A DNA stretch of 21,149 nucleotides, from positions 1 through 21,149 of the IMG/VR virus record IMGVR_UViG_3300048918_000128, one strand, 5' to 3'. The notes beneath the pieces were generated by a model. It worked only from the letters and a program-made list of their open reading frames with translations, was not told where the DNA came from and made no database searches. Positions within the stretch are counted from its first letter, which is position 1, and every line of letters starts with the position of its first letter. The translations under genes were made by a program, and so were the position numbers. This DNA comes from a virus. Shown in pieces: positions 7,853 to 20,552 of the stretch.

Positions 7853-8016
7853 CAGATTTCACGCACAAGCATGATGATGAGATAAATCAGGAGGGGGACT
7901 GCGGCCACGAGGAGTCCGGCCAACATCAACTCTGCCCATTGCGGAAGAGGCACATCGCTTGGGCCAAAAATGACAGACGAAGGGATGACGATGGGGATAA
8001 ATATTGCCATCATCAT
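7852..8016 (-). CDS. Short membrane protein (52-54 aa) after the tape measure gene
   Basis: This is a short gene in the gap after the tape measure protein. Three consecutive in-frame ATGs occur at 8016, 8013 and 8010; the first makes an ATGA overlap with the tape measure stop. The stop overlaps the next ATG as TGATG. The product is 52-54 residues. It has a hydrophobic N-terminus (IFIPIVIPSSVIF), a short polar turn (PSDVPLPQW) and a clear transmembrane segment (LMLAGLLVAAVPLLIYLIIM) ending in LVREI. It could be a two-segment membrane protein. Holin-like, membrane-penetration or tail-associated roles are possible, but none is shown. Its tight coupling to both neighbours supports it being translated. 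Confidence 0.75.
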   Translation of the reverse strand: MMMAIFIPIVIPSSVIFGPSDVPLPQWAELMLAGLLVAAVPLLIYLIIMLVREI

Positions 8017-11000
8017 CGATCCCAGCTCGGCTTGCGGCGCGTGGTGGAGGACATTTGAGACGACGAGGAATGACGCTCAAGATCGCGAATGGTGTCGCGC
8101 GAGGCGAACATCTCGAAATGCTGGCCGCCGACGCCGAGCGGGAAGCTGATCAAGCCGCCGCGCCCGCTCACCTGACCGCCAGACGCGAAAGCCGGAATGC
8201 TGGCGATCGACGGCGCCCCGATCATGCCGCCCAACGCAAAGCGCGGCATTTCGAAATTGTTCAGCGCATGGAAGAAGCCCGGCCCCCACGCCGCGACGGC
8301 CTTGGCGTTGACGACGAATTCACCATTGGAGAGACGCGCGAGAATGCTATCTGAAGTCCCGGTTCCAGGCCCCGAGATATGGCCGCCAGCGGCGTGGCCA
8401 TCGACCGGCGCAGCGGACTGGCCGCCCGGAAGTTTGAAATTCGACATCGCGTCGGAGAGATTGCGAATTCCGGTCGTGAACGTCTGCAACAGGCCTGAGG
8501 CTGTCGCCGTGGCTTCGCCAGCTTGTTCGAAAGACGATTTCGCTTCGGTCGTCTTTTCGCTCGCCGCCTCAACAGAGCCGAGATATTCCGTATTGGCTTC
8601 GGCGCTGCGCTGCAAAGCCTCGGCTGAAAGATAGACGCTGTTGCCGTGCGCCGTCAGCGAATGGTCAGATGCGTTTGAGGCTTCGCCATCCGCGTCGTCG
8701 CCTTTCGGCGCGTTCTTGAAATTACGCCCGCCGAAATGACCTTCGCCCCCGCCTGAGAACATTTTCAGGATATTGGCGAAAAATCCGTCCGATGCCTGCT
8801 TGGTCTGCTGTTCCATCGACTTGAACGGTTCGACAATATCGCCCGCAATGCGCGACATGATCGAGGCCAGATCGGAGCCAATTCGCACCGCCTCTTGATA
8901 GGAGCCGGCGAGATCGGCTTTCGCGCCGGGCTTGCCGCCTGGAACGCCGCCCTTGGCTTCGGCTGCGGAAGCGCTCGAAACGCCGAATTCTTTCCAGAGT
9001 TTTCCAAGAATTCCAAGCGTGTCTTCGTGGTCTTTCTTGACGCCCTCAAGGGAATCCTTCTGAACCTTGCGGAAGTGATCGGCGGCGTCTTGATTGCCGC
9101 TGAACAGCTTTGAAAATCCGCTGATGATGCCGGAAAAGAAGCCGTCGCTGTCCTTTTTCGTTTCGTTGGCCGCGTCGCCGGTGCCGGAAAACAGCGAGCG
9201 GACGCCCAAGACGAGTTTAGCGATTGACGTGGTGAAAACGCCGGAACTGGCGCCTGCGCCGCCAAAGGCGTCGCCAATCGCGGTTTTCACATTGCCAAGC
9301 GTCTCGGATAGTTCGCCGGTCTTGAGTTTGATCCCGATCAAACCCGCCAGAAAGGCCGCAATCGCGGGATGCTCCATGATCAGGACCGCCGCCGTGATCG
9401 CCAGCGCGAGGCCATCGAACACCACGGCGAGAGCCGTCACCAGCGCCAGCACGGGCGCGAGAATGCCGGTAAATTGCAGGAATGCGCCGATCAAAAGCAA
9501 CTGCTTCCCGGTCAAGCTGGTGCCGAAAATACCGTTGATCGCCTTGGCGACGAAATTGGCGCCGCCCTCTACCGCCTTCCAAACGGCTAGAAGGTCGTCC
9601 CAAACGCCCTTGATGACCGTCCAGCCCTTTTGATGCTCGGCCTTGATCCACGCCCATGCGCCGCTGACAGCGCCCTCCAGCGCCTCCCACGGGCCGCGCA
9701 GCCACGGGATAGAGGAAACTGACTGCGCGCGGAGCCACGCATAGCCCTCGGCAAACGCCGTGCGCACCGTCGCCCATGCCTCGCTGGCCGCCGTGGCGAA
9801 TTGCCGCCACGCCTGCGCCTGCACCGCGCTATTGCCTGAAAACAGGCTCCCGAACCACGCCAGAAAGGCGCGGCCTGCGGTCATGATCTCCGCGAACGCA
9901 CCGCTTCCAGCAACCGAGATTGAGCGCCACGCCGTCCCTAAGATGGGAACAGTCTCAACCGCTCCGGCCCAGACCGCCCGCCATGCGACAGCCGCCGCAA
10001 TCGCCAGTGCAGAGAAGCCGCCGCCCCATAACGCCGCGCTGGCGAGCAAGCCGATGCCGATCTCGATCCATGTTTCGCGCGAAAAGCCCTTGATCTTGTC
10101 GAAGACCGCGCTCGCAATTTTCTCGATTTCCGCTAGCGGAGCGGCAAGGCTTGGGAACGCGGAAACCAGAGTTGATTTGAGCGCGTCATAGCCATTTTTT
10201 GCGATCTCTCCGAGACGCGAGAAGACGGATACAGCCTGCGCCTCAATCGAGGTCCAGAGCGCCGAAAAGTCGATTTTAGAAACCGCTTGCGAGATTTGCG
10301 CCCATGCCGCCGAGGCGCGCGTCACGATGCCGCCGAAAATATCGGACGCGGCCTGCTTGAACCCGCCGAACGATGAAAAATCATGCGCTGCGAAAAAGTC
10401 GCGGATCGAATTGATCGCGGGCTTAATGTAATTGGAGACAAAATTCGGAAGATCGAGGCGGTGCTTTTCGATGAATTCAGAGAGGCCGTCCTGCGAGGAA
10501 GTCGCAAAAGGCGTGAACAGCAGCCCGATCTCATGCAAAGTTCCGCTGATCGTCGCGGAAATGACCGTCTTTTGCTCTGAAAGATTAAGGCTCAGACGAT
10601 GGAATGAATCGCCCCATTCTTTGGAAACCTCTTTGGCGTGGTCTGTCTCAGCGAGGCCGAGTTTGTTGAAGATTTCCTTTGTCGTGCTGATCTTTACAGC
10701 AAGGTCTTCGATTTCCTCGGCGTGCTTGCCGTACCGGGTTTTCAGCGCCGCAATGAATGAATCCTTGCGCGGGCCATCATCCAACCCTTTGAGCGTTTCG
10801 CCAATCTTGAGCAAAACCGCTTGAAAGTTGTTCGCATCTTCGCGCGCGCCAAGGCCGAATAGCCCTTCGAAGCGCAGGCTGGTTTTCCCAGCCTCTCCCG
10901 GCTTGGCGCCGGAAATGACGGATATACCATTGCTGGCGAAAAAGGCCGCGCTTTCCGAGCCAAGTTCCCCAATCGCGCGGAAATGGTTTTTCGCGCTCTT

Positions 11001-11435
11001 TGCCGTTTCGTCCAGAGCGTTCTTGGTCTTGTCCAGCCAAGAATTCAGCTTGTCTCCGCTGATGCCCGCCGCCCCCGCTGCGAATTGCAGACGCTGGACT
11101 TCCTCAGTCGTCGTCTTCAATTCCTTGGCGGTGTCAACGAGATCATTCGTCGTCTTGGCCGCCTTCGCGCCAACAGCCGCCATAATGCCGGAAAGCGCAC
11201 TGAACGCAGCGGCAATCTCGCCTATGCCTTTGACGATAGACCCGAGGCCGCTTCCGAGCGGGCCGAACGAATCAGCCGCAGAGCGGAAAGCGTTCAGGCC
11301 GCCAGTCGATTGGCGCGCAGCGTCGCTAATCTGCTTGAACGCCTGATCGCCCGCCTTTCCGATTTCGGCAAGCTGCTTGGCGATATCAGTGCCGCCATCA
11401 AGCGCGATTTTTGCCCGGAGGATATCGTCAGCCAT
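8013..11435 (-). CDS. Tape measure protein
   Basis: This encodes 1140 residues, the longest gene here, with a strong AAGGAGGG ribosome site about 8 nt upstream. Residues 1-160 are helical and Ala/Lys-rich. Two long hydrophobic stretches lie at about 458-490 and 645-704, typical of the membrane-inserting parts of tape measure proteins. Between them (about 485-620) is a Trp-rich region with several Trp pairs 11 residues apart. The C-terminus (1015-1071) has the common tape measure ending with SGPGTGTSDSILARLS, GEFVVNA and FALGG. The protein sets tail length and is threaded through the tube; by the rule of about 0.15 nm per residue the tail would be near 170 nm. No peptidase or lysozyme motif is evident. 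It lies after the chaperone genes, as in other siphoviruses. Confidence 0.93.
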   Translation of the reverse strand: MADDILRAKIALDGGTDIAKQLAEIGKAGDQAFKQISDAARQSTGGLNAFRSAADSFGPLGSGLGSIVKGIGEIAAAFSALSGIMAAVGAKAAKTTNDLVDTAKELKTTTEEVQRLQFAAGAAGISGDKLNSWLDKTKNALDETAKSAKNHFRAIGELGSESAAFFASNGISVISGAKPGEAGKTSLRFEGLFGLGAREDANNFQAVLLKIGETLKGLDDGPRKDSFIAALKTRYGKHAEEIEDLAVKISTTKEIFNKLGLAETDHAKEVSKEWGDSFHRLSLNLSEQKTVISATISGTLHEIGLLFTPFATSSQDGLSEFIEKHRLDLPNFVSNYIKPAINSIRDFFAAHDFSSFGGFKQAASDIFGGIVTRASAAWAQISQAVSKIDFSALWTSIEAQAVSVFSRLGEIAKNGYDALKSTLVSAFPSLAAPLAEIEKIASAVFDKIKGFSRETWIEIGIGLLASAALWGGGFSALAIAAAVAWRAVWAGAVETVPILGTAWRSISVAGSGAFAEIMTAGRAFLAWFGSLFSGNSAVQAQAWRQFATAASEAWATVRTAFAEGYAWLRAQSVSSIPWLRGPWEALEGAVSGAWAWIKAEHQKGWTVIKGVWDDLLAVWKAVEGGANFVAKAINGIFGTSLTGKQLLLIGAFLQFTGILAPVLALVTALAVVFDGLALAITAAVLIMEHPAIAAFLAGLIGIKLKTGELSETLGNVKTAIGDAFGGAGASSGVFTTSIAKLVLGVRSLFSGTGDAANETKKDSDGFFSGIISGFSKLFSGNQDAADHFRKVQKDSLEGVKKDHEDTLGILGKLWKEFGVSSASAAEAKGGVPGGKPGAKADLAGSYQEAVRIGSDLASIMSRIAGDIVEPFKSMEQQTKQASDGFFANILKMFSGGGEGHFGGRNFKNAPKGDDADGEASNASDHSLTAHGNSVYLSAEALQRSAEANTEYLGSVEAASEKTTEAKSSFEQAGEATATASGLLQTFTTGIRNLSDAMSNFKLPGGQSAAPVDGHAAGGHISGPGTGTSDSILARLSNGEFVVNAKAVAAWGPGFFHALNNFEMPRFALGGMIGAPSIASIPAFASGGQVSGRGGLISFPLGVGGQHFEMFASRDTIRDLERHSSSSQMSSTTRRKPSWDR

Positions 11436-11439
11436 AAGC

Positions 11440-12096
11440 TTAACCCTCCTTCAAATGCGCTGAGAATGATTTGGTCAGATCGGCATAGGCGCGCTCGACT
11501 ACGCCGAGAACGTCGAATTTTTTGGCAATGGTGACGCTTGGGACGCCAAAGAACATCGGCACGTCATAGCCGCCGTTTTTCGCCCCGGCGCGCAATGCCG
11601 AAACTTTCTCGACGCGCGGTCCAGACAGGCGGATCACGCCGGGAGGCGGCGGCGCTTTGGGAGGCGTCGCCGTCTTGCCGACGAGCAACGGGTGATTTCT
11701 ACCGCGTACATATTGCAGCTTGCCGATGTTCTGCTGATAGACCGATGGCGTTGGATGGCGCCCGCCAATGACCGATGGGCAAGACGGCAACGGAAGCCAC
11801 AACAACGGGTCACCCTGGATCGTTTCGCCGTGCTCGAACACCATCGCATAGGGGATATTATGGCGAACATAAATGCTGCCGCCGCCGCTCTTTGACGGAT
11901 AGACATCGACGCGCAAGGCGTTCTGCCATTTGTTGGAAAAGCCGGCCTGCGCGATCGAGGCGCGGCCCTCCCATTTGATCCGCTCGGCTGTTTCCACCAG
12001 CGCCTTTTGCGCCGCAGAATGAACCGCGTCTTTCCAGCGCACGGTAAGACGCGCCATAGCGTCGGAACTGATGCTGACCCTCGCTTCAAGGCTCAT
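11440..12096 (-). CDS. Tail protein, possible gpZ/HK97-gp10-like tail completion protein
   Basis: This encodes 218 residues and overlaps the end of the chaperone T frame by 11 nt. An N-terminal helix (about 13-52) is followed by FSNKWQNALRVDVYP, a basic strand, a Pro-rich linker (TPPKAPPPPG, about 143-152) and a C-terminal VPMFFGVPSVTIAKKFDVLGVV element with a final helix. The overall layout (helix, strand-rich middle, basic residues, C-terminal helix) resembles tail completion proteins of the lambda Z or HK97 gp10 type. In lambda that gene lies before U and V; here there is no Z-like gene in that place, which fits a moved equivalent. The assignment is uncertain. A separate conserved tail family between chaperone and tape measure is the main alternative. 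Confidence 0.7.
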   Translation of the reverse strand: MSLEARVSISSDAMARLTVRWKDAVHSAAQKALVETAERIKWEGRASIAQAGFSNKWQNALRVDVYPSKSGGGSIYVRHNIPYAMVFEHGETIQGDPLLWLPLPSCPSVIGGRHPTPSVYQQNIGKLQYVRGRNHPLLVGKTATPPKAPPPPGVIRLSGPRVEKVSALRAGAKNGGYDVPMFFGVPSVTIAKKFDVLGVVERAYADLTKSFSAHLKEG

Positions 12097-12762
12097 CGAT
12101 CAATGCCCCGAATTGCTTTTCAACCGCGTTTGGATCGCCGCGCGCGGCCAGCGTCTGGATGTTGAGTTGTTCCGCCAGTTCGCGGCGATGGCGCTTTGAC
12201 GCCAATTTCAGCGATGCGGCGATCTGGCGCGGCGTCATCGCCCAGACTTCCATCGGGCGATAATTGAAGCCGATCAGCGCATCAAAGGCCTCGGCCAAAT
12301 CCGCGAAAATATTGCGTTTTGGCTCCGGTGCGGCGTCATCGGGTCTTGCCGCCGCCGCCGCTTCGATATTGGCGTAATAGCCTAGGGATTCGAGGAAGGC
12401 GTCACGCCCATCGCCTTCGTCAACGCCTGCACTAAAGGGCCGGGGCCATCCGGCATGGTGAGAGCAATAATCGGGGCCAGGAGCGCCGCCTGTTCGCCCA
12501 TGACGAGACGAGAGAACAGCTTTTCAGCCGCCTCGTCTCCAAGCCGTCCGCAACCGGCAGCGATCGCAGCTCCAACCGCATCGGCGCCAATATCGAACCA
12601 GTCGCCCTCAGTCACTTCTCCGCCTTTCAGCTTCGTGATGATCTGCGGGAAACGCTTGGCGAGGCGAAGAAAATCCCCGAGCGCCAGCCCGGAGACTTCC
12701 ACCGCGATATTGCGGATGGTAACGGTTTCAGAGAGCGGCGCGAGGTCGAAAATATCGGCCAT
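12086..12762 (-). CDS. Tail assembly chaperone GT, made by -1 frameshift
   Basis: The frame at -1 relative to the 126-residue G gene is open from about 12523 to the TGA at 12086-12088 and has no good start of its own (the first candidate is a TTG at 12298). A slip at CCCTTTA (12433-12439) after Leu110 would continue with 115 residues starting SAGVDEGDGRDAFLESLGYY, giving a 225-residue fusion. The T part has an Ala/Pro linker and then a helical domain (FNYRPMEVWAMTPRQIAAS, then KRHRRELAEQLN). This is the classical G/GT arrangement before the tape measure gene, where GT recruits tube subunits to the tape measure protein during tail assembly. The protein is a chaperone that is not found in the virion in lambda. 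Frameshift efficiency cannot be judged from the sequence. Confidence 0.8.
12382..12762 (-). CDS. Tail assembly chaperone G (unshifted product)
   Basis: This encodes 126 residues and starts in a TGATG overlap with the tube gene stop. It is acidic and mostly helical (for example LALGDFLRLAKRFPQIITKL, then an Ala/Gly-rich helix and LPDG-like turn). Size, position between tube and tape measure, and the overlapping -1 frame behind it match gpG of lambda-type tails. It coats and protects the tape measure protein before tube polymerisation. The zero-frame stop is a TAG at 12382-12384, 48 nt after the slip site. Confidence 0.82.
   Translation of the reverse strand: MADIFDLAPLSETVTIRNIAVEVSGLALGDFLRLAKRFPQIITKLKGGEVTEGDWFDIGADAVGAAIAAGCGRLGDEAAEKLFSRLVMGEQAALLAPIIALTMPDGPGPLVQALTKAMGVTPSSNP
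12433..12439 (-). promoter_or_regulatory. -1 ribosomal frameshift heptamer CCCTTTA
   Basis: On the minus strand the G gene reads GGC CCT TTA GTG, so C CCT TTA is a perfect X XXY YYZ heptamer in the right phase. It is the only such heptamer in the 140 nt where the two frames overlap. Five nt later a modest hairpin can form: the arm at 12422-12427 pairs with 12398-12403 (GGCGTT with GACGCC, including one G-U pair), which is the usual spacing for a stimulatory structure. Confidence 0.75.
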
Positions 12763-13469
12763 CAGGCGATCTCCGCGCCATAATACAGCGTGAAGCTGTC
12801 ATTAGGCACGCCGTAGACATCGCCCTTGAGGCTCATCTTGGCCTGCTTTTCCGAGATCCACTCGATCTTGTCGGGGATGAGCTGGAATCGCGGGATGATG
12901 ACCTGGAAGTGCTTGCCATAAGCGCCGGTTCCGACGAATTGCAGCGCGACATTGGCCGGCAGCGCGCCGCCGAAGGTCACAAAGCGATGCGGCGACGTGC
13001 CGCCGATGGTGCCGAAATTGGCGAGCGCCAGATTTTCGATCGTGTATTCCTCGATCGTCAGCTCCATTTCGCCCTTACGCTTGGTCAAGAACGTCATGTC
13101 GGTGTTGACGGCGCCGGACTGCGAGGTCTGATGATCCTCGCGAGTGTCGGTCATCTTGGTCGAGAAGCCGGAGGTATTGCCGATTCCGACGAACGGGACG
13201 TAATCCCATTTCAGCGTGACGCCATCCGCAATCGCGGTCGTGGTGCCGGTCGGGCCGCCCGAGGAAGCAGATGTTCCAGCAGTCGAGCAGACATAGACCG
13301 AATAGGGGAATTCGGCTCCGGTCGGAGACGGATTGAAGTTCAAAACCTGATCGCCAAGGGCGTAGGCGGTCGTCGCCTGCCAGCGATTGATCAGGGGCGC
13401 GTTGGTAATAACGCCCATGACGCCTTTGCCGAGGTAGTAGTTCTGCGGGCCAAGAGGGGTAGCGGCCAT
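12762..13469 (-). CDS. Major tail tube protein with an inserted surface module
   Basis: This encodes 235 residues from an ATG at 13469 with a GGAG ribosome site 8 nt upstream. The N-terminus (about 1-28) and the part from about 95 onwards (KRKGEMELTIEEY, strand-rich to the end) fit a tube-forming protein of the lambda gpV type. Residues about 30-90 are a separate module (WQATTAYALGDQV, then YSVYVCSTAGTS, then a DGVTLKW strand) like that in the hub protein. It is likely displayed on the tail exterior and might bind carbohydrate. The tube protein polymerises around the tape measure protein. It is the first gene after the terminator at 13547-13568, so it may have its own promoter or be reached by readthrough. 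Confidence 0.85.
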   Translation of the reverse strand: MAATPLGPQNYYLGKGVMGVITNAPLINRWQATTAYALGDQVLNFNPSPTGAEFPYSVYVCSTAGTSASSGGPTGTTTAIADGVTLKWDYVPFVGIGNTSGFSTKMTDTREDHQTSQSGAVNTDMTFLTKRKGEMELTIEEYTIENLALANFGTIGGTSPHRFVTFGGALPANVALQFVGTGAYGKHFQVIIPRFQLIPDKIEWISEKQAKMSLKGDVYGVPNDSFTLYYGAEIA

Positions 13470-14803: not shown

Positions 14804-16864
14804 TCAGGCGCCGTTCGACTTGAGCATGGTGCGGAAATCGAGCGCCTTGACGCCCGCGTCGATGCGAATTTTCATCTCGACGCCATCGACATCCCAGCCG
14901 AGTTGCTGTTCCATCGTCGGGGCCTGCACGCCATTGAGGTAAGCAACCTCGATAGTGTCGTACATGCCCGCGTCGGCGGTCAGATACCAAGCCGTGGTGG
15001 AAGCAGCGTCGAGACGCGCATCGGCCAGAACTTCCGCCATATTGGCGGCGGGGTTGGCGACTCCCGCATTGGCCTGCGCCGGATCGGACGATGAACGGAT
15101 CAACTGACCCGCGAGGCCTTCGAGAGCAGCCGGAACGAGCAGATATTTCGGGCGAATGTTGAGGCCACCAGTCGCGCGGGCGTCCGGGTCCTGCTGCGTC
15201 GCCATCTTGGCGCGCGCCGATATCAACGAAGTCGAGGATAGCACCGAAGAACCGCCAGTGAGCAAGTTCTTGTGATTGGCGTGGAATAGCGCCACGCTGT
15301 CCGACATATTCGGGTTGCCGGTCAGGACCGCATAGACCAGGTTGCCGATGGTGCGGCGCGCGGCGCGGCCCATGCGCGACGGAACCTTGGTCAACATGTT
15401 CAGGTCGTCATTGATGATGACCTGGCGGTTGATGCGGAACTTGTTGCCATAGGTGGCGAGTTGGATCGTCTCGCCACGGTCGCCAACGGTGGCATAATTG
15501 TATTCGGTGCCTTCGTCGAGCTGCGACAGCGCCGGGAACAGGTTCAGATCGACGCGCTTGGTCGATTTGAAATCGGGCAGCGTGCCAGGCGAAGTCCACT
15601 TGTCGAAGGTTTCCTCGGCTTCGTCCCAGCCCTTCATCATGCCCTTGTTGGCGATGTTGGCGAGGATATTGGCGAAGTCGGAGGTGGACTGACCGGCGCC
15701 TTCGTTGCGCACGGTGAAGGCGCGACCGATCATGGCCATCGTATCCGAAGACCTGGCCATCGAGTCATTACGAACGCGCAGGCTCTCGCGGGCCAGTTCG
15801 CGCAGCGTCATTCCCGAAAACTCGTTGCGCTCGCCGCCCTTTTGGCCGGCGCGGGCCGAGACGCCCAGGCTGGCGCCGACGATGAATTTTTCGCGCTCGT
15901 CGGTCACGACATGATTGGCGGACTTGTTCTGGATTTCCGGACCTTCGTTGGCCTTGGCCCAGGCGTCGATGATGCTCTCGCGGGCCTTGTCAACTCCGGC
16001 GCCGGAATCGATCAGGCTCTGCGCGAAGGTGTCTGGCAGTTTGGCCGAACGCACGGCGTTCTGAATGGTCGAAACGCGGGTGCGTTCCGCGATGATTGCT
16101 TCATCGCGCACGGCCTGCAAAGCGTTGGCGTCCGGCGCGGCGTTCTGCACGCCCGCCTGATCCATATTCTGGATGGTCATGGGGTTTTCCTTGAGGTTTG
16201 CGGCGGGCGCCGCATGTGACGCCACGGCGGGAGCCGGAGCGAAGGTTTTCGACGCGAGCAACCGCGCCAGATTGGTTTTGTCGAGTTTGTCGCAAGCCGC
16301 GACCGCGAGCGCGCCGACAATGCCGGTGCAAAATCCCTTGGTCATCGCGTCTTCAGCGCAAAGATAGGTTTCAGACGCCATCATGGCGCAGATCTCGTCC
16401 GGGTCGCAGCCGGTGCGGCTGGCGTAAATCCCGACAATCAAATCTTTCTGCCGGTCGATCTCGTCAGCCTGCGCGCGCAGATCGCTGGAGCCGCCCATTG
16501 CGAAGGCCCACGGGTCGTGAATCATGATCGTAGCGCTTTCCGCCATCATGATTTCGTCGCCCGCCATCGCAACCACGGAAGCAGCAGACGCCGCCATCGC
16601 GTCGATCTGGACTTCGCAGGGGCGCGGGTCGTTTTTTAGAGCGTTGTAAATCGCCAAAGCTTCGACGACAGAGCCGCCCGGCGAATTGATGCGCGCCTTG
16701 ATCTTCGGCCCTTGGAATTTGAGCAGCGTATCGACCACATCGATGGCGCGGACGCCTTGACCGGCCTCGCAAAATGGATCGATCACGCCGTAAATCATCA
16801 GCGCATCGCCGGAAAGAAGGCTTCGCGTCCCATCCTGGGCGCGCACTTCATTTTGCGCCATCAT
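14804..16864 (-). CDS. Prohead protease (ClpP-like)/major capsid protein fusion
   Basis: This encodes 686 residues from the ATG at 16864 (a start 30 nt further upstream is less likely: AGGGGG precedes 16864 and this ATG sits at the portal stop). Residues about 20-190 are a ClpP-like head maturation protease: SPGGSVVEAL (61-70), the serine in MAASAAS (Ser94) and MIHDP (His116). A linker and helical delta/scaffold-like region (about 200-330) follows, and the HK97-fold major capsid protein occupies the rest (FRINRQVIINDDLN, RPKYLLVPAALEGLAGQ, then YLNGVQAPTMEQQ). The protease cleaves the scaffold region during head expansion. Protease-capsid fusions of this sort are a known type. Where ClpP has its catalytic aspartate, this protein appears to have Glu (ASETYLCAEDA). 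Confidence 0.92.
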   Translation of the reverse strand: MMAQNEVRAQDGTRSLLSGDALMIYGVIDPFCEAGQGVRAIDVVDTLLKFQGPKIKARINSPGGSVVEALAIYNALKNDPRPCEVQIDAMAASAASVVAMAGDEIMMAESATIMIHDPWAFAMGGSSDLRAQADEIDRQKDLIVGIYASRTGCDPDEICAMMASETYLCAEDAMTKGFCTGIVGALAVAACDKLDKTNLARLLASKTFAPAPAVASHAAPAANLKENPMTIQNMDQAGVQNAAPDANALQAVRDEAIIAERTRVSTIQNAVRSAKLPDTFAQSLIDSGAGVDKARESIIDAWAKANEGPEIQNKSANHVVTDEREKFIVGASLGVSARAGQKGGERNEFSGMTLRELARESLRVRNDSMARSSDTMAMIGRAFTVRNEGAGQSTSDFANILANIANKGMMKGWDEAEETFDKWTSPGTLPDFKSTKRVDLNLFPALSQLDEGTEYNYATVGDRGETIQLATYGNKFRINRQVIINDDLNMLTKVPSRMGRAARRTIGNLVYAVLTGNPNMSDSVALFHANHKNLLTGGSSVLSSTSLISARAKMATQQDPDARATGGLNIRPKYLLVPAALEGLAGQLIRSSSDPAQANAGVANPAANMAEVLADARLDAASTTAWYLTADAGMYDTIEVAYLNGVQAPTMEQQLGWDVDGVEMKIRIDAGVKALDFRTMLKSNGA
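16178..16192 (-). promoter_or_regulatory. Internal ribosome binding site and start in protease-capsid gene
   Basis: Inside the fusion gene, AAGGA (16188-16192) stands 7 nt before an in-frame ATG at 16180 (codon 229), starting MTIQNMDQAGVQ. This is exactly at the boundary between the protease linker and the helical scaffold region. Initiation here would give a 458-residue scaffold-capsid protein without the protease, like the nested Nu3 within lambda C. Not proven. Confidence 0.5.
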
Positions 16865-18408
16865 GCGCCCCCTTTTGGTGTTTGTTCGGCCCATTTCCCA
16901 GGTTCTCCGGACTTCTCGGCCTGATCTGTCGCCAATTGATCCGGCGCGCGCTGATCCTGGCCGCGCAAATTGGTGTGGCGGGCATCGGAATCGAGAACGA
17001 GGCCCAATTTGTCGGCGCGCTTGTTGTCGCTGGCGATCTCGCGATCGATCTGTTCAATATCGAGGCCACGGCGCCGCAGGATCTCGGCGCGCGACGACAG
17101 GCCCGCGCGGATTTCTTCTTTCGCGGACTGATTTTCAGAAGTCGGGTCGATCATTTCACGCTGCGGCGGCGTCCAGTTCAATTCGAACGGCGCGCTCGAC
17201 ATCGTGACCATCATCAGGGCTTCTTTGGTCCAGCGTTCCAGCGGCTCAAGCGCCTGAGGAATGAACATATTCCAGCGCCAGGCGTCGATATTGCGCTGGA
17301 ATTCCAGCCAACCCATGCGCCCAGACGAGAAATTGACGCCCGATAGATCGCCCGTAAGGCCCTCATAAGTCACGCCTAGGCCGCAGGCGATTTCATGCAG
17401 CGTGACCGAGCTATAAACCGCCGCATCATTGGTGCTGGGCGGCGTCCCGAAAATCACGCTTTCGCCATCGCGTAGGCGCTCGATCATGCCGGGTTCAAGC
17501 TGTTCGATCGGCAGGCTTCCATCCGCCGAAGGCGTCGCGGCATAGCCCTCTTGCGTTGTGATGAAGGCGGAGAAACACGCCGCAATCTTCTGTTGCATCA
17601 GTTTCGCGTCGAGCATGTCCGCGAAATCGCGCAGCCGCAGAACGACAGGAGCAAACCAGCTTGTCCCCCTGACCTGTCCTGGGCGATCGGCGCGGAACAC
17701 ATGGCAGACATTATCCGCAGAAACGCGCTTGCCGCGCATGTTCCATTGGCCGGTCGTCCAGTACATCGCGCCGGGGTGCTGGTCGAATAGGTAATAGGCG
17801 ACGCGATGGCCAAGAACGTCGAACTCGACGCCCTGGATTACATAATTGCCGTTGTCCAGCTTGCCATTAATCCATGGGTCAAGGTGGTCCGGTTCAAGGA
17901 TCTGCAATTGGAACGGCAGCGCGTAACCATCAGAGGACCGGCGGGGACGGCGGCGGATAATGACCTCGCCGGCCTCCACAACCGTCTTGATCGCCAGTTC
18001 TTGCAAGCCGTAAAGGTTGAGCCTTCCGTCCGCGTCGATGTCGGTCGATTCAAAATGCTGCTTGAGCAGCGCGGAAATTTTCTTTTTGCGGTCTTCCGAT
18101 TGGCAAATGACCGAGGGCGTTATGCCTGCGCCGACGATGTTATGCGCGATCAACTGTTTTGCGCGCGAGGCGTAGGAATTGTTACGGCAGAGATCGCGCG
18201 CGACATTGCGCAGCCGATAGATCGCCGGAGCATTTTCCGCATTTGGATCGGTTCCAACGGCGCGCCAATGCTGAGTCCGGCGCCCAACAGCCGCAGCTTC
18301 GTACACGTTCAGAACATTGTTAAGCCGCTGAATCTGCGCCCGCGCCTCAAGCCTCCGCGCCGCAGCGCGTGGGGCGATTGCGGAGATGGCCTTTTCGAGC
18401 AGATTCAT
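16861..18408 (-). CDS. Portal protein, lambda gpB family
   Basis: This encodes 515 residues. The N-terminus is helical and Arg/Ala-rich. It continues with RLRNVARDLCRNNSYASRAKQ split over a helix, then DADGRLNLYGLQELAIK and VVEAGEVIIRRRPR, QILEPDHLD (about 190) and later RGTSWFAPVVLRLRDFADML, all typical of lambda-family portals. The dodecameric portal occupies one capsid vertex, acts as the DNA channel and binds terminase and joining proteins. Length is near that of lambda B (533). The C-terminal tail is polar and charged. The stop overlaps the start of the protease-capsid gene. The start lies 3 nt after the gpW stop without a clear ribosome site, so translational coupling is likely. Confidence 0.93.
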   Translation of the reverse strand: MNLLEKAISAIAPRAAARRLEARAQIQRLNNVLNVYEAAAVGRRTQHWRAVGTDPNAENAPAIYRLRNVARDLCRNNSYASRAKQLIAHNIVGAGITPSVICQSEDRKKKISALLKQHFESTDIDADGRLNLYGLQELAIKTVVEAGEVIIRRRPRRSSDGYALPFQLQILEPDHLDPWINGKLDNGNYVIQGVEFDVLGHRVAYYLFDQHPGAMYWTTGQWNMRGKRVSADNVCHVFRADRPGQVRGTSWFAPVVLRLRDFADMLDAKLMQQKIAACFSAFITTQEGYAATPSADGSLPIEQLEPGMIERLRDGESVIFGTPPSTNDAAVYSSVTLHEIACGLGVTYEGLTGDLSGVNFSSGRMGWLEFQRNIDAWRWNMFIPQALEPLERWTKEALMMVTMSSAPFELNWTPPQREMIDPTSENQSAKEEIRAGLSSRAEILRRRGLDIEQIDREIASDNKRADKLGLVLDSDARHTNLRGQDQRAPDQLATDQAEKSGEPGKWAEQTPKGGA

Positions 18409-18650: not shown

Positions 18651-20552
18651 TTACCTCGAAAGCCAGTTCTTGCGCTCAACCCCGAGCCAGCCGGATTTTT
18701 CGCTCTGGCGAACAGGGCGGCGCATGGTCTTGTTTTTCCAGGCCGCATCTTCGGCAAGCCGGATGCCCCAGATCACATTCTTGGCGAGCAAAGCCGCATA
18801 GGCATAGACGCGGCAATCCAGCGCCTCATTGCGCCGTCCGTTCGGGAGCAGATAAACTTTTTGCGGGCGCCCATTGACGTATTTGTATCGGGCAATCTCG
18901 GACGTGAGCTGATCAAAATAATTGCTCTCCCGATCGAGCGGGAAGTGACAATAGCGCGGGCCGATGTCCTTGGTTTTCAGGCGAGCGTATATCTGATCTT
19001 TGGCGGCGTGAACGCCGACCAGAAACACATTTGCCCTGAATTTATTGTTGCTGCTGGACTTGACCGGCCATACCCTGGCGTCCGTCTTGCTGGCGCCCTT
19101 GATCGCGTAGGCAAATCCAACCTTGTCCTTTGCGAAGGCGTAAACGCTTTGCGTGAAATGGCCGCCCGAATCGATGCACGCCGCTTCAACGGGAATTTCG
19201 CGCCCATCGCTGCGCGTCGTCGGCGTCAGCAGATAATCGTGAAGCTGCTTCCACAAGTTCGGCGCGCTTGGGTCGCCATACATGATCTGATAATCAAGCG
19301 ACCAGCTTTCCTCGCCAGCGCCCCATCCGACGCGCTCTATTTCGATGCGGTCATCCTGAACGTCAACGCCGCACGTGATCATCAGCACGTTATCCGGGCA
19401 GCCGTTCGGCCCGAAGTCTTCGACGCGCGCATAAAGCGCGTTGCCGTCAACCTTTTCGGCGTCTTCCTCCCACGGCTCACCCAGAACCAGATTAATCCAG
19501 GTCCGCAAAAGCGTGTTGTCGTTGTGAACCCGCAGCCATTCCGAAACGAGATTGGCCCAGCACGCATTTGGAAACAGAGAGTATCCGGCCCAGACATGAA
19601 ACCCGGCATGACCCTTGAACGGCTTCTCCGCGATCCATTCTCCGTTATCGATCATCCACGGCTTATGATGCTCTTCGATCACACAGCCGTTGCCGCTTTC
19701 GCAGAGCAGATAGACCGATTCAGGATCTAGGTTGCCGTCCTCGTCACGCGAAAACTTGATATTGCCCCAGCGGATGACTTGTTTATGTCCGCAATGAGGG
19801 CAAGGCACGAAATAACGCCGCTGATCGCTCTCCGCGAAAGCCTTCTCGATCCGCGAGACGCCCTTAACGGTTGGCGTCGAACCCAGAATGATCTTGCGAT
19901 TCCAGAACGTCTCGGATCGCTTCGTGCCAAGCGCGATCTGGTCGCCTTCGTCTCCGGCGCCCTCGCGGGGATAACCATCCACCTCATCAAAGGCGATGAT
20001 GCGCGCGGTAATGCGGCGGAAACCTCCCGGCGAATTGGCGCCGACAAACGAAACCGAAGATCCATTTCGAAACAGCCGCTTGTTAATGCGCTGGTTCGAA
20101 TCCCTCGATTTCAGGTCGCCCGCGATTTCAGCTAAGACCGGCGTATCGCGCAGCATCGGCGCGATTTCCGTTCTGGAATAATCTTCTGCGTCCTCGACGC
20201 GCGGCTGAACCACGAGGATTGGCGACGGGTCTTGATGGATGAAATATCCGACAACGTGATCGAGGATCTTGGTGTATCCGACGCGGGCCGATTTCATGAC
20301 CGTGATCTGGCGCGACGCCGGATCTGTGATCGCGTCCATGATCCCGTTTTGGTAGGCGAACGCCGTAAACTTGCCGCCCCGCGCGCTCGTCTCCGGGGAG
20401 AGATGCGCATATTCGTTCGCCCATTCGCTCAGGCTCAGGATCGGCGGCGGCTTAAGAGCCTCGCGCCTTGCCCGGAATAGCGCCTCAGTGAGACGCGCCG
20501 CGCCTCGGCGATACCGATCCCGCGCTAGCGGCTGCAACGCCGTCGCCGTCAA
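18651..20552 (-). CDS. terL: Terminase large subunit, GpA family
   Basis: This encodes 633 residues (lambda A has 641). The ATPase part has a Walker A-like KSARVGYTK (87-95), Walker B RIIAFDE (184-190, acidic pair 189-190) and a coupling motif LGSTPT (223-228). A zinc-binding-like set of Cys lies at 251, 254, 284 and 290. The nuclease part shows Asp397 (GVDVQDD), Asp461 (CIDSGG) and the NEALDCRVYAYAA element near 575-587. The enzyme translocates DNA into the prohead and cuts it; GpA types usually cut at cos sites, but headful types exist. The start is TTG at 20552, preceded by AGAGGG at about 8 nt, and the gene overlaps the small subunit by 68 nt. No better ATG exists near the N-terminus. Confidence 0.95.
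   Translation of the reverse strand: MTATALQPLARDRYRRGAARLTEALFRARREALKPPPILSLSEWANEYAHLSPETSARGGKFTAFAYQNGIMDAITDPASRQITVMKSARVGYTKILDHVVGYFIHQDPSPILVVQPRVEDAEDYSRTEIAPMLRDTPVLAEIAGDLKSRDSNQRINKRLFRNGSSVSFVGANSPGGFRRITARIIAFDEVDGYPREGAGDEGDQIALGTKRSETFWNRKIILGSTPTVKGVSRIEKAFAESDQRRYFVPCPHCGHKQVIRWGNIKFSRDEDGNLDPESVYLLCESGNGCVIEEHHKPWMIDNGEWIAEKPFKGHAGFHVWAGYSLFPNACWANLVSEWLRVHNDNTLLRTWINLVLGEPWEEDAEKVDGNALYARVEDFGPNGCPDNVLMITCGVDVQDDRIEIERVGWGAGEESWSLDYQIMYGDPSAPNLWKQLHDYLLTPTTRSDGREIPVEAACIDSGGHFTQSVYAFAKDKVGFAYAIKGASKTDARVWPVKSSSNNKFRANVFLVGVHAAKDQIYARLKTKDIGPRYCHFPLDRESNYFDQLTSEIARYKYVNGRPQKVYLLPNGRRNEALDCRVYAYAALLAKNVIWGIRLAEDAAWKNKTMRRPVRQSEKSGWLGVERKNWLSR

Follow-up and report, generated by a model that had tools for sequence, protein, structure and literature searches.

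The tail module of an uncultivated tailed phage, positions 1 to 21,149 of IMG/VR record IMGVR_UViG_3300048918_000128 (this whole stretch of 21,149 nucleotides is referred to as the window), contains two overlapping frames, G and T. They raise the question of whether T is translated as a separate gene or is joined to G by -1 slippage of the G/GT type, which is used by phage lambda and most long-tailed phages. All of the tail-module genes considered are encoded on the minus strand, which the original prediction of a frameshift at this locus had left unstated. The genes are arranged in the order major tail protein (12762..13469; PHROG 807, E 2.7e-11), G (12382..12762), the T frame (12086..12433), a DUF6441 gene (11440..12096; PF20039, E 6.3e-17), the start of which overlaps the stop of T, and the tape measure protein (8013..11435; PHROG 3547, E 3.4e-24). 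The overlapping frames, the second at -1, are thus located between the genes of the major tail protein and the tape measure protein, with the one DUF6441 gene intervening between T and the latter. G, the zero frame, encodes a tail assembly chaperone of 126 amino acids and ends with the stop codon TAG at 12384-12382. Its product matches Pfam family PF23789 (Pre_tape_measure) with 28.2 bits, above the curated cut-off of 27 (E 1.8e-6), and PHROG 5260, annotated as 'tail' (E 3.1e-4). The T frame is open from 12523, next to a stop at 12526-12524, to its own stop at 12088-12086, and the overlap of the two frames measures 142 nt, close to the 140 nt estimated before.

The overlap contains a single heptamer of the type X XXY YYZ in the zero-frame phase, C CCT TTA at 12439-12433 (12433..12439, minus strand), as had been proposed. 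A -1 shift at this position would join 110 residues of G to the 115 residues of the T extension (SAGVDEGD...), resulting in a 225-residue fusion with the junction GPL-SAGVDEGD. It is very probable that a programmed -1 ribosomal frameshift at CCCTTTA makes the G-T protein, as indicated by the gene order, the family matches, the conservation of a start-less T frame, the presence of CCCTTTA in the close relative L007, and that of CCCTTTC in a remote clade. A count through the genes of the window gives 15 in-phase canonical heptamers in 5925 codon positions, which corresponds to 0.12 expected in the overlap. The codon TTA represents 1.4% of the leucine codons in these genes (7 of 488), and CCT is used for 32 of 300 prolines. 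The heptamer by itself is only moderately improbable, and the case is carried by conservation. Without stimulators, C_CC.U_UU.A gives more than 0.10% frameshifting in Escherichia coli, where this motif is under-represented among genes; C_CC.U_UU.C is listed with the motifs that shift at a high level, and the heterogeneous class ending in UUA is reported to shift less than the all-pyrimidine UUY class (PMC4066793). CCCTTTA is a less usual slip sequence, and its heterogeneous UUA codon is a point against efficient slippage. A literature search that covered few subscription papers returned none on tail chaperones in which CCCTTTA or CCCUUU appears, so this absence is no proof of novelty.

The closely related contig L007 (IMG/VR 3300048908_000149) contains a G that is 97% identical to that of the window, and has the same CCCTTTA. 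In the overlap upstream of the site, all five differences between the two sequences are synonymous in G and none of the five is synonymous in T. Between the site and the G stop, both of the two differences are synonymous in T and one of them in G, and from the G stop to the TTG codon at which a 70-residue frame could start, five of eight are synonymous in T. The frame under selection appears to change where the frameshift model predicts, albeit judged from small numbers of differences. The nearest diagnostic difference upstream of the heptamer is approximately 27 nt away, so the frame switch is bounded rather than pinned. The -1 shift might instead take place elsewhere in the overlap, for example within the runs of CCCC/GGCC (12478-12442) or at a position two codons further on. 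However, the overlap has no second in-phase heptamer on which both tRNAs could re-pair.

The remote clade L017-L024, found via its major tail protein, which is 23% identical over the part that matches, comprises eight contigs with three distinct sequences over the G/T region. The G of these contigs is about 35% identical to that of the window, and the G of L019 matches PF23789 with 39.9 bits (E 4.7e-10). Their T frame (SAIEQLISLGHRSGDVWEYTPRQLEGF...) can be aligned with the T frame of the window and has the same -1 arrangement. The sole heptamer in the clade, CCCTTTC, occupies the same alignment column as CCCTTTA (GP[L/F]V), and the codons at the site are GGC CCT TTC GTC as compared to GGC CCT TTA GTG in the window. 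In 34 aligned codons, the window and L019 share 14 identical residues but the same codon in only three positions, two of which are the GGC CCT that builds the heptamer. There are no differences between L019 and L021 in their 133-nt overlap and 24 in the remaining 487 nt, as reading of both frames in the overlap would predict. The window is a single uncultivated contig, and the break between the frames might in principle be a sequencing error or the mark of a decayed gene. Nevertheless, G and T are related by the same -1 offset in independent contigs from several lineages, which contradicts a sequencing error and makes this explanation extremely unlikely. In the clade L017-L024, T is separated from the tail gene that follows by a small hydrophobic frame of 68 amino acids (L019:5356-5562 and relatives), which has no counterpart in the window.

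The contigs L004, L005, L006, and L012, the G of which is about 30% identical to that of the window, lack CCCTTTA. The expected conservation of the heptamer in homologues thus holds for L007 and, in the form CCCTTTC, for L017-L024, but not for this clade. The T frame is conserved here at -1 (D[AP]FLES[LI]GYY...VW.MTPRQI) and is start-less in the overlap, although L006 ends ahead of most of it. The absence of the heptamer looks like site turnover rather than a refutation of the frameshift, because T stays both conserved and start-less in the overlap. L004, L005, and L012 share G GGG GAG, located 6 nt (two codons) beyond the position of CCCTTT and in the same phase. GGGGGAG is the likely replacement slip site in these three contigs; we put it forward as a proposal, since dual coding alone could conserve those bases. 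Differences between L004 and L012 at third positions of G codons drop from 21 of 31 upstream of GGGGGAG to 1 of 9 downstream. In L012 (L012:2642-3064), the stop codon of G is lost and G continues beyond the place where it usually ends. FLESIGYY is nevertheless retained in the T frame by means of synonymous changes, one of them a switch of serine codon, which shows that reading of T begins ahead of the G stop position. The sequence GGGGGGC is possible as the site of L004 and L006, but was set aside, being absent from L005 and L012. The motif G_GG.G_GG.U, quoted for G_GG.G_GG, has the weakest quoted value, 0.018% (PMC4066793).

Judging by the GGGGGAG clade, the site may be mobile, which together with the loose bound from L007 speaks for a shift at another position in the overlap of the window. 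CCCTTTC, however, is the sole candidate in the remote clade and lies in the same column as CCCTTTA, and we consider another position very unlikely. With slippage at CCCTTTA as the preferred reading, it seems rather probable that the frameshift has been kept in one tail-module family while its slip sequence was exchanged, with C CCT TT[A/C] used by two lineages that are remote from each other and G GGG GAG by a third. If true, this would be a traceable replacement of a site within a dual-coding overlap. The three clades provide a small comparative set for following how a frameshift site changes as coding is maintained in both frames. Two additional contigs, L014 and L015, were found at 36-37% partial identity of a tail protein. 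A PHROG with the name tail assembly chaperone is matched by G of L014 at an E value of 5.3e-30. A TTTTTTT run is the sole in-phase heptamer in their G/T overlap, and ribosomal and transcriptional slippage could both apply to it. The run (L014:4968-4974, L015:4977-4983) is positioned 118 nt from the G stop, in a region that has no counterpart in the G of the window.

Alternatively, T could be a separate small gene, translated from its own start (TTG 12298 or ATG 12253) or by ribosomes that re-initiate once they have terminated on G, for which no frameshift is needed. The isolated 70-residue gene with a TTG start, anticipated as the annotation that would stand in place of the 225-residue fusion, is present at 12298-12086. 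Moreover, the conserved core of T begins near those starts, and the related profiles TAC_6 and TIGR02216 are short (58 positions). The T of the window matches PF09550 (Phage_TAC_6) with 18 bits (E 0.004) and that of L007 with 20.5 bits, as compared to the curated cut-off of 23.4, and that of L004 is just above it with 23.5 bits. However, there is no evident ribosome site in the bases preceding TTG 12298, and the TTG is not shared by L007, in which the first ATG, GTG, or TTG of the T frame is located 129 nt past the G stop, at residue PMEVW, leaving no start codon ahead of the T core. Furthermore, the part of the T frame upstream of the TTG, with FLES[LI]GYY encoded across the G stop, is kept in five sequences, in L012 through the T-synonymous changes described above. 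The downstream frame is thus under protein selection without a start of its own, in agreement with the original prediction, and an independent start of T, which we rejected on the evidence of L007 and of the conservation upstream of the TTG, is very unlikely. The frame arrangement, the heptamer, the conservation, and the coding of T without a start codon can all be read from the sequence.

A stimulatory RNA structure is often present at G/GT frameshifts, but it is optional. Hairpins can be drawn downstream of the heptamer at 12395..12427 on the minus strand. The 6-bp stem (one G-U) proposed earlier, GGCGTT/GACGCC (12427-12422 / 12403-12398), which begins 5 nt after the heptamer, does exist; however, it is no more stable than shuffled sequences, and the predicted fold displaces it with a competing 7-bp stem, GAAGGCG/CGCCTTC (12418-12412 / 12401-12395). 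The 55 nt downstream of the heptamer have a folding energy of -17.3 kcal/mol as compared to -17.05 +/- 2.98 in shuffles (z -0.08), which gives no support to the hairpin as a stimulator, and no stimulatory RNA structure was found in these 55 nt. The first 50 nt downstream of the site are unexceptional, as 29% of the gene stretches of the window fold at least as well, and in L017 the structure is no more than weak (z -1.47). Inspection by eye identified no clear Shine-Dalgarno-like stimulator upstream. Because a stimulatory structure is optional, a missing one does not exclude the locus from the G/GT type, and structural stimulators are not always found at prokaryotic frameshift sites (PMC4066793).

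Searches with tblastn gave no match for G and T among 50,697 phage records, and none for the DUF6441 protein and the G of the remote clade in the phage collection. The major tail protein had only two matches in this collection, both distant, in Vibrio phage, and scans of genome contigs for relatives returned no confirmed relative. The large terminase subunit (18651-20552, minus strand) is up to 57-59% identical to those of Citrobacter phage phiNP and Serratia phage BZS1. The known relatives of the terminase, set against G, T, and DUF6441 proteins with none in phage records, indicate a mosaic genome. A single 696-residue gene at 14804-16894 (minus strand) unites a ClpP-like prohead protease and the major capsid protein in one product (NF045540, E 7.5e-196), a fusion of a known kind.

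We infer the slippage itself, its rate, and the chaperone roles of the products as follows. Most ribosomes would read G to its TAG codon and produce the 126-residue protein. In a minority of ribosomes, the tRNA-Pro at CCT and the tRNA-Leu at TTA would move back by one base and re-pair with CCC and TTT, in a double slippage. Translation would then proceed in the T frame (AGT GCA GGC...) and yield the 225-residue G-T protein, so that G would be plentiful and GT scarce. On the model of lambda, the tape measure protein would be coated by many copies of G and few of GT, the T part would recruit the major tail protein, and both chaperones would then leave the tail. The binding partner of gpG in lambda is the tape measure protein, and that of the T part is the major tail protein, according to a review (PMC5009743). 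The annotation is corrected, here and in the unannotated relatives, by replacing the orphan 70-residue TTG gene with the 225-residue GT fusion, and CCCTTTA and CCCTTTC join the slip sequences on which genes for tail chaperones probably rely.

The locus is very probably an ordinary G/GT frameshift of the lambda type, and its interesting part is the heptamer and the apparent replacement of the latter within the family. The likeness to lambda gpG/gpGT is one of arrangement: a short zero-frame protein with a -1 extension is encoded ahead of the tape measure gene, the heptamer is near the end of G, and T has no usable start. The slip sequence is GGGAAAG in lambda as opposed to CCCTTTA here, and a DUF6441 gene separates T from the tape measure gene in the window. 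The G-T pairs of Burkholderia phages BcepNazgul and AH2, and gp93/gp94 of phiCbK, are alike in naming and gene position, and differ in slip sequence from the CCCTTTA/CCCTTTC described here; the GT of AH2 has 228 residues as compared to 225. Slip sequences vary in such phages: AAAAAAG in AH2, GGGAAAC in KL1, AAAAAAC in phiCbK, and GGGAAAC in Colossus (PMC3483164, PMC3556154). Among SEA-PHAGES genomes, GGGGGAA is reported at about a thousand sites, where the second tRNA re-pairs if G-U is allowed (PMC10885494). The G GGG GAG of L004, L005, and L012 resembles these 'fivetwo' sites, described with PRFect (PMC10885494), and is in the same phase, but differs by one base, with GAG in place of GAA, and the window itself has no such site.
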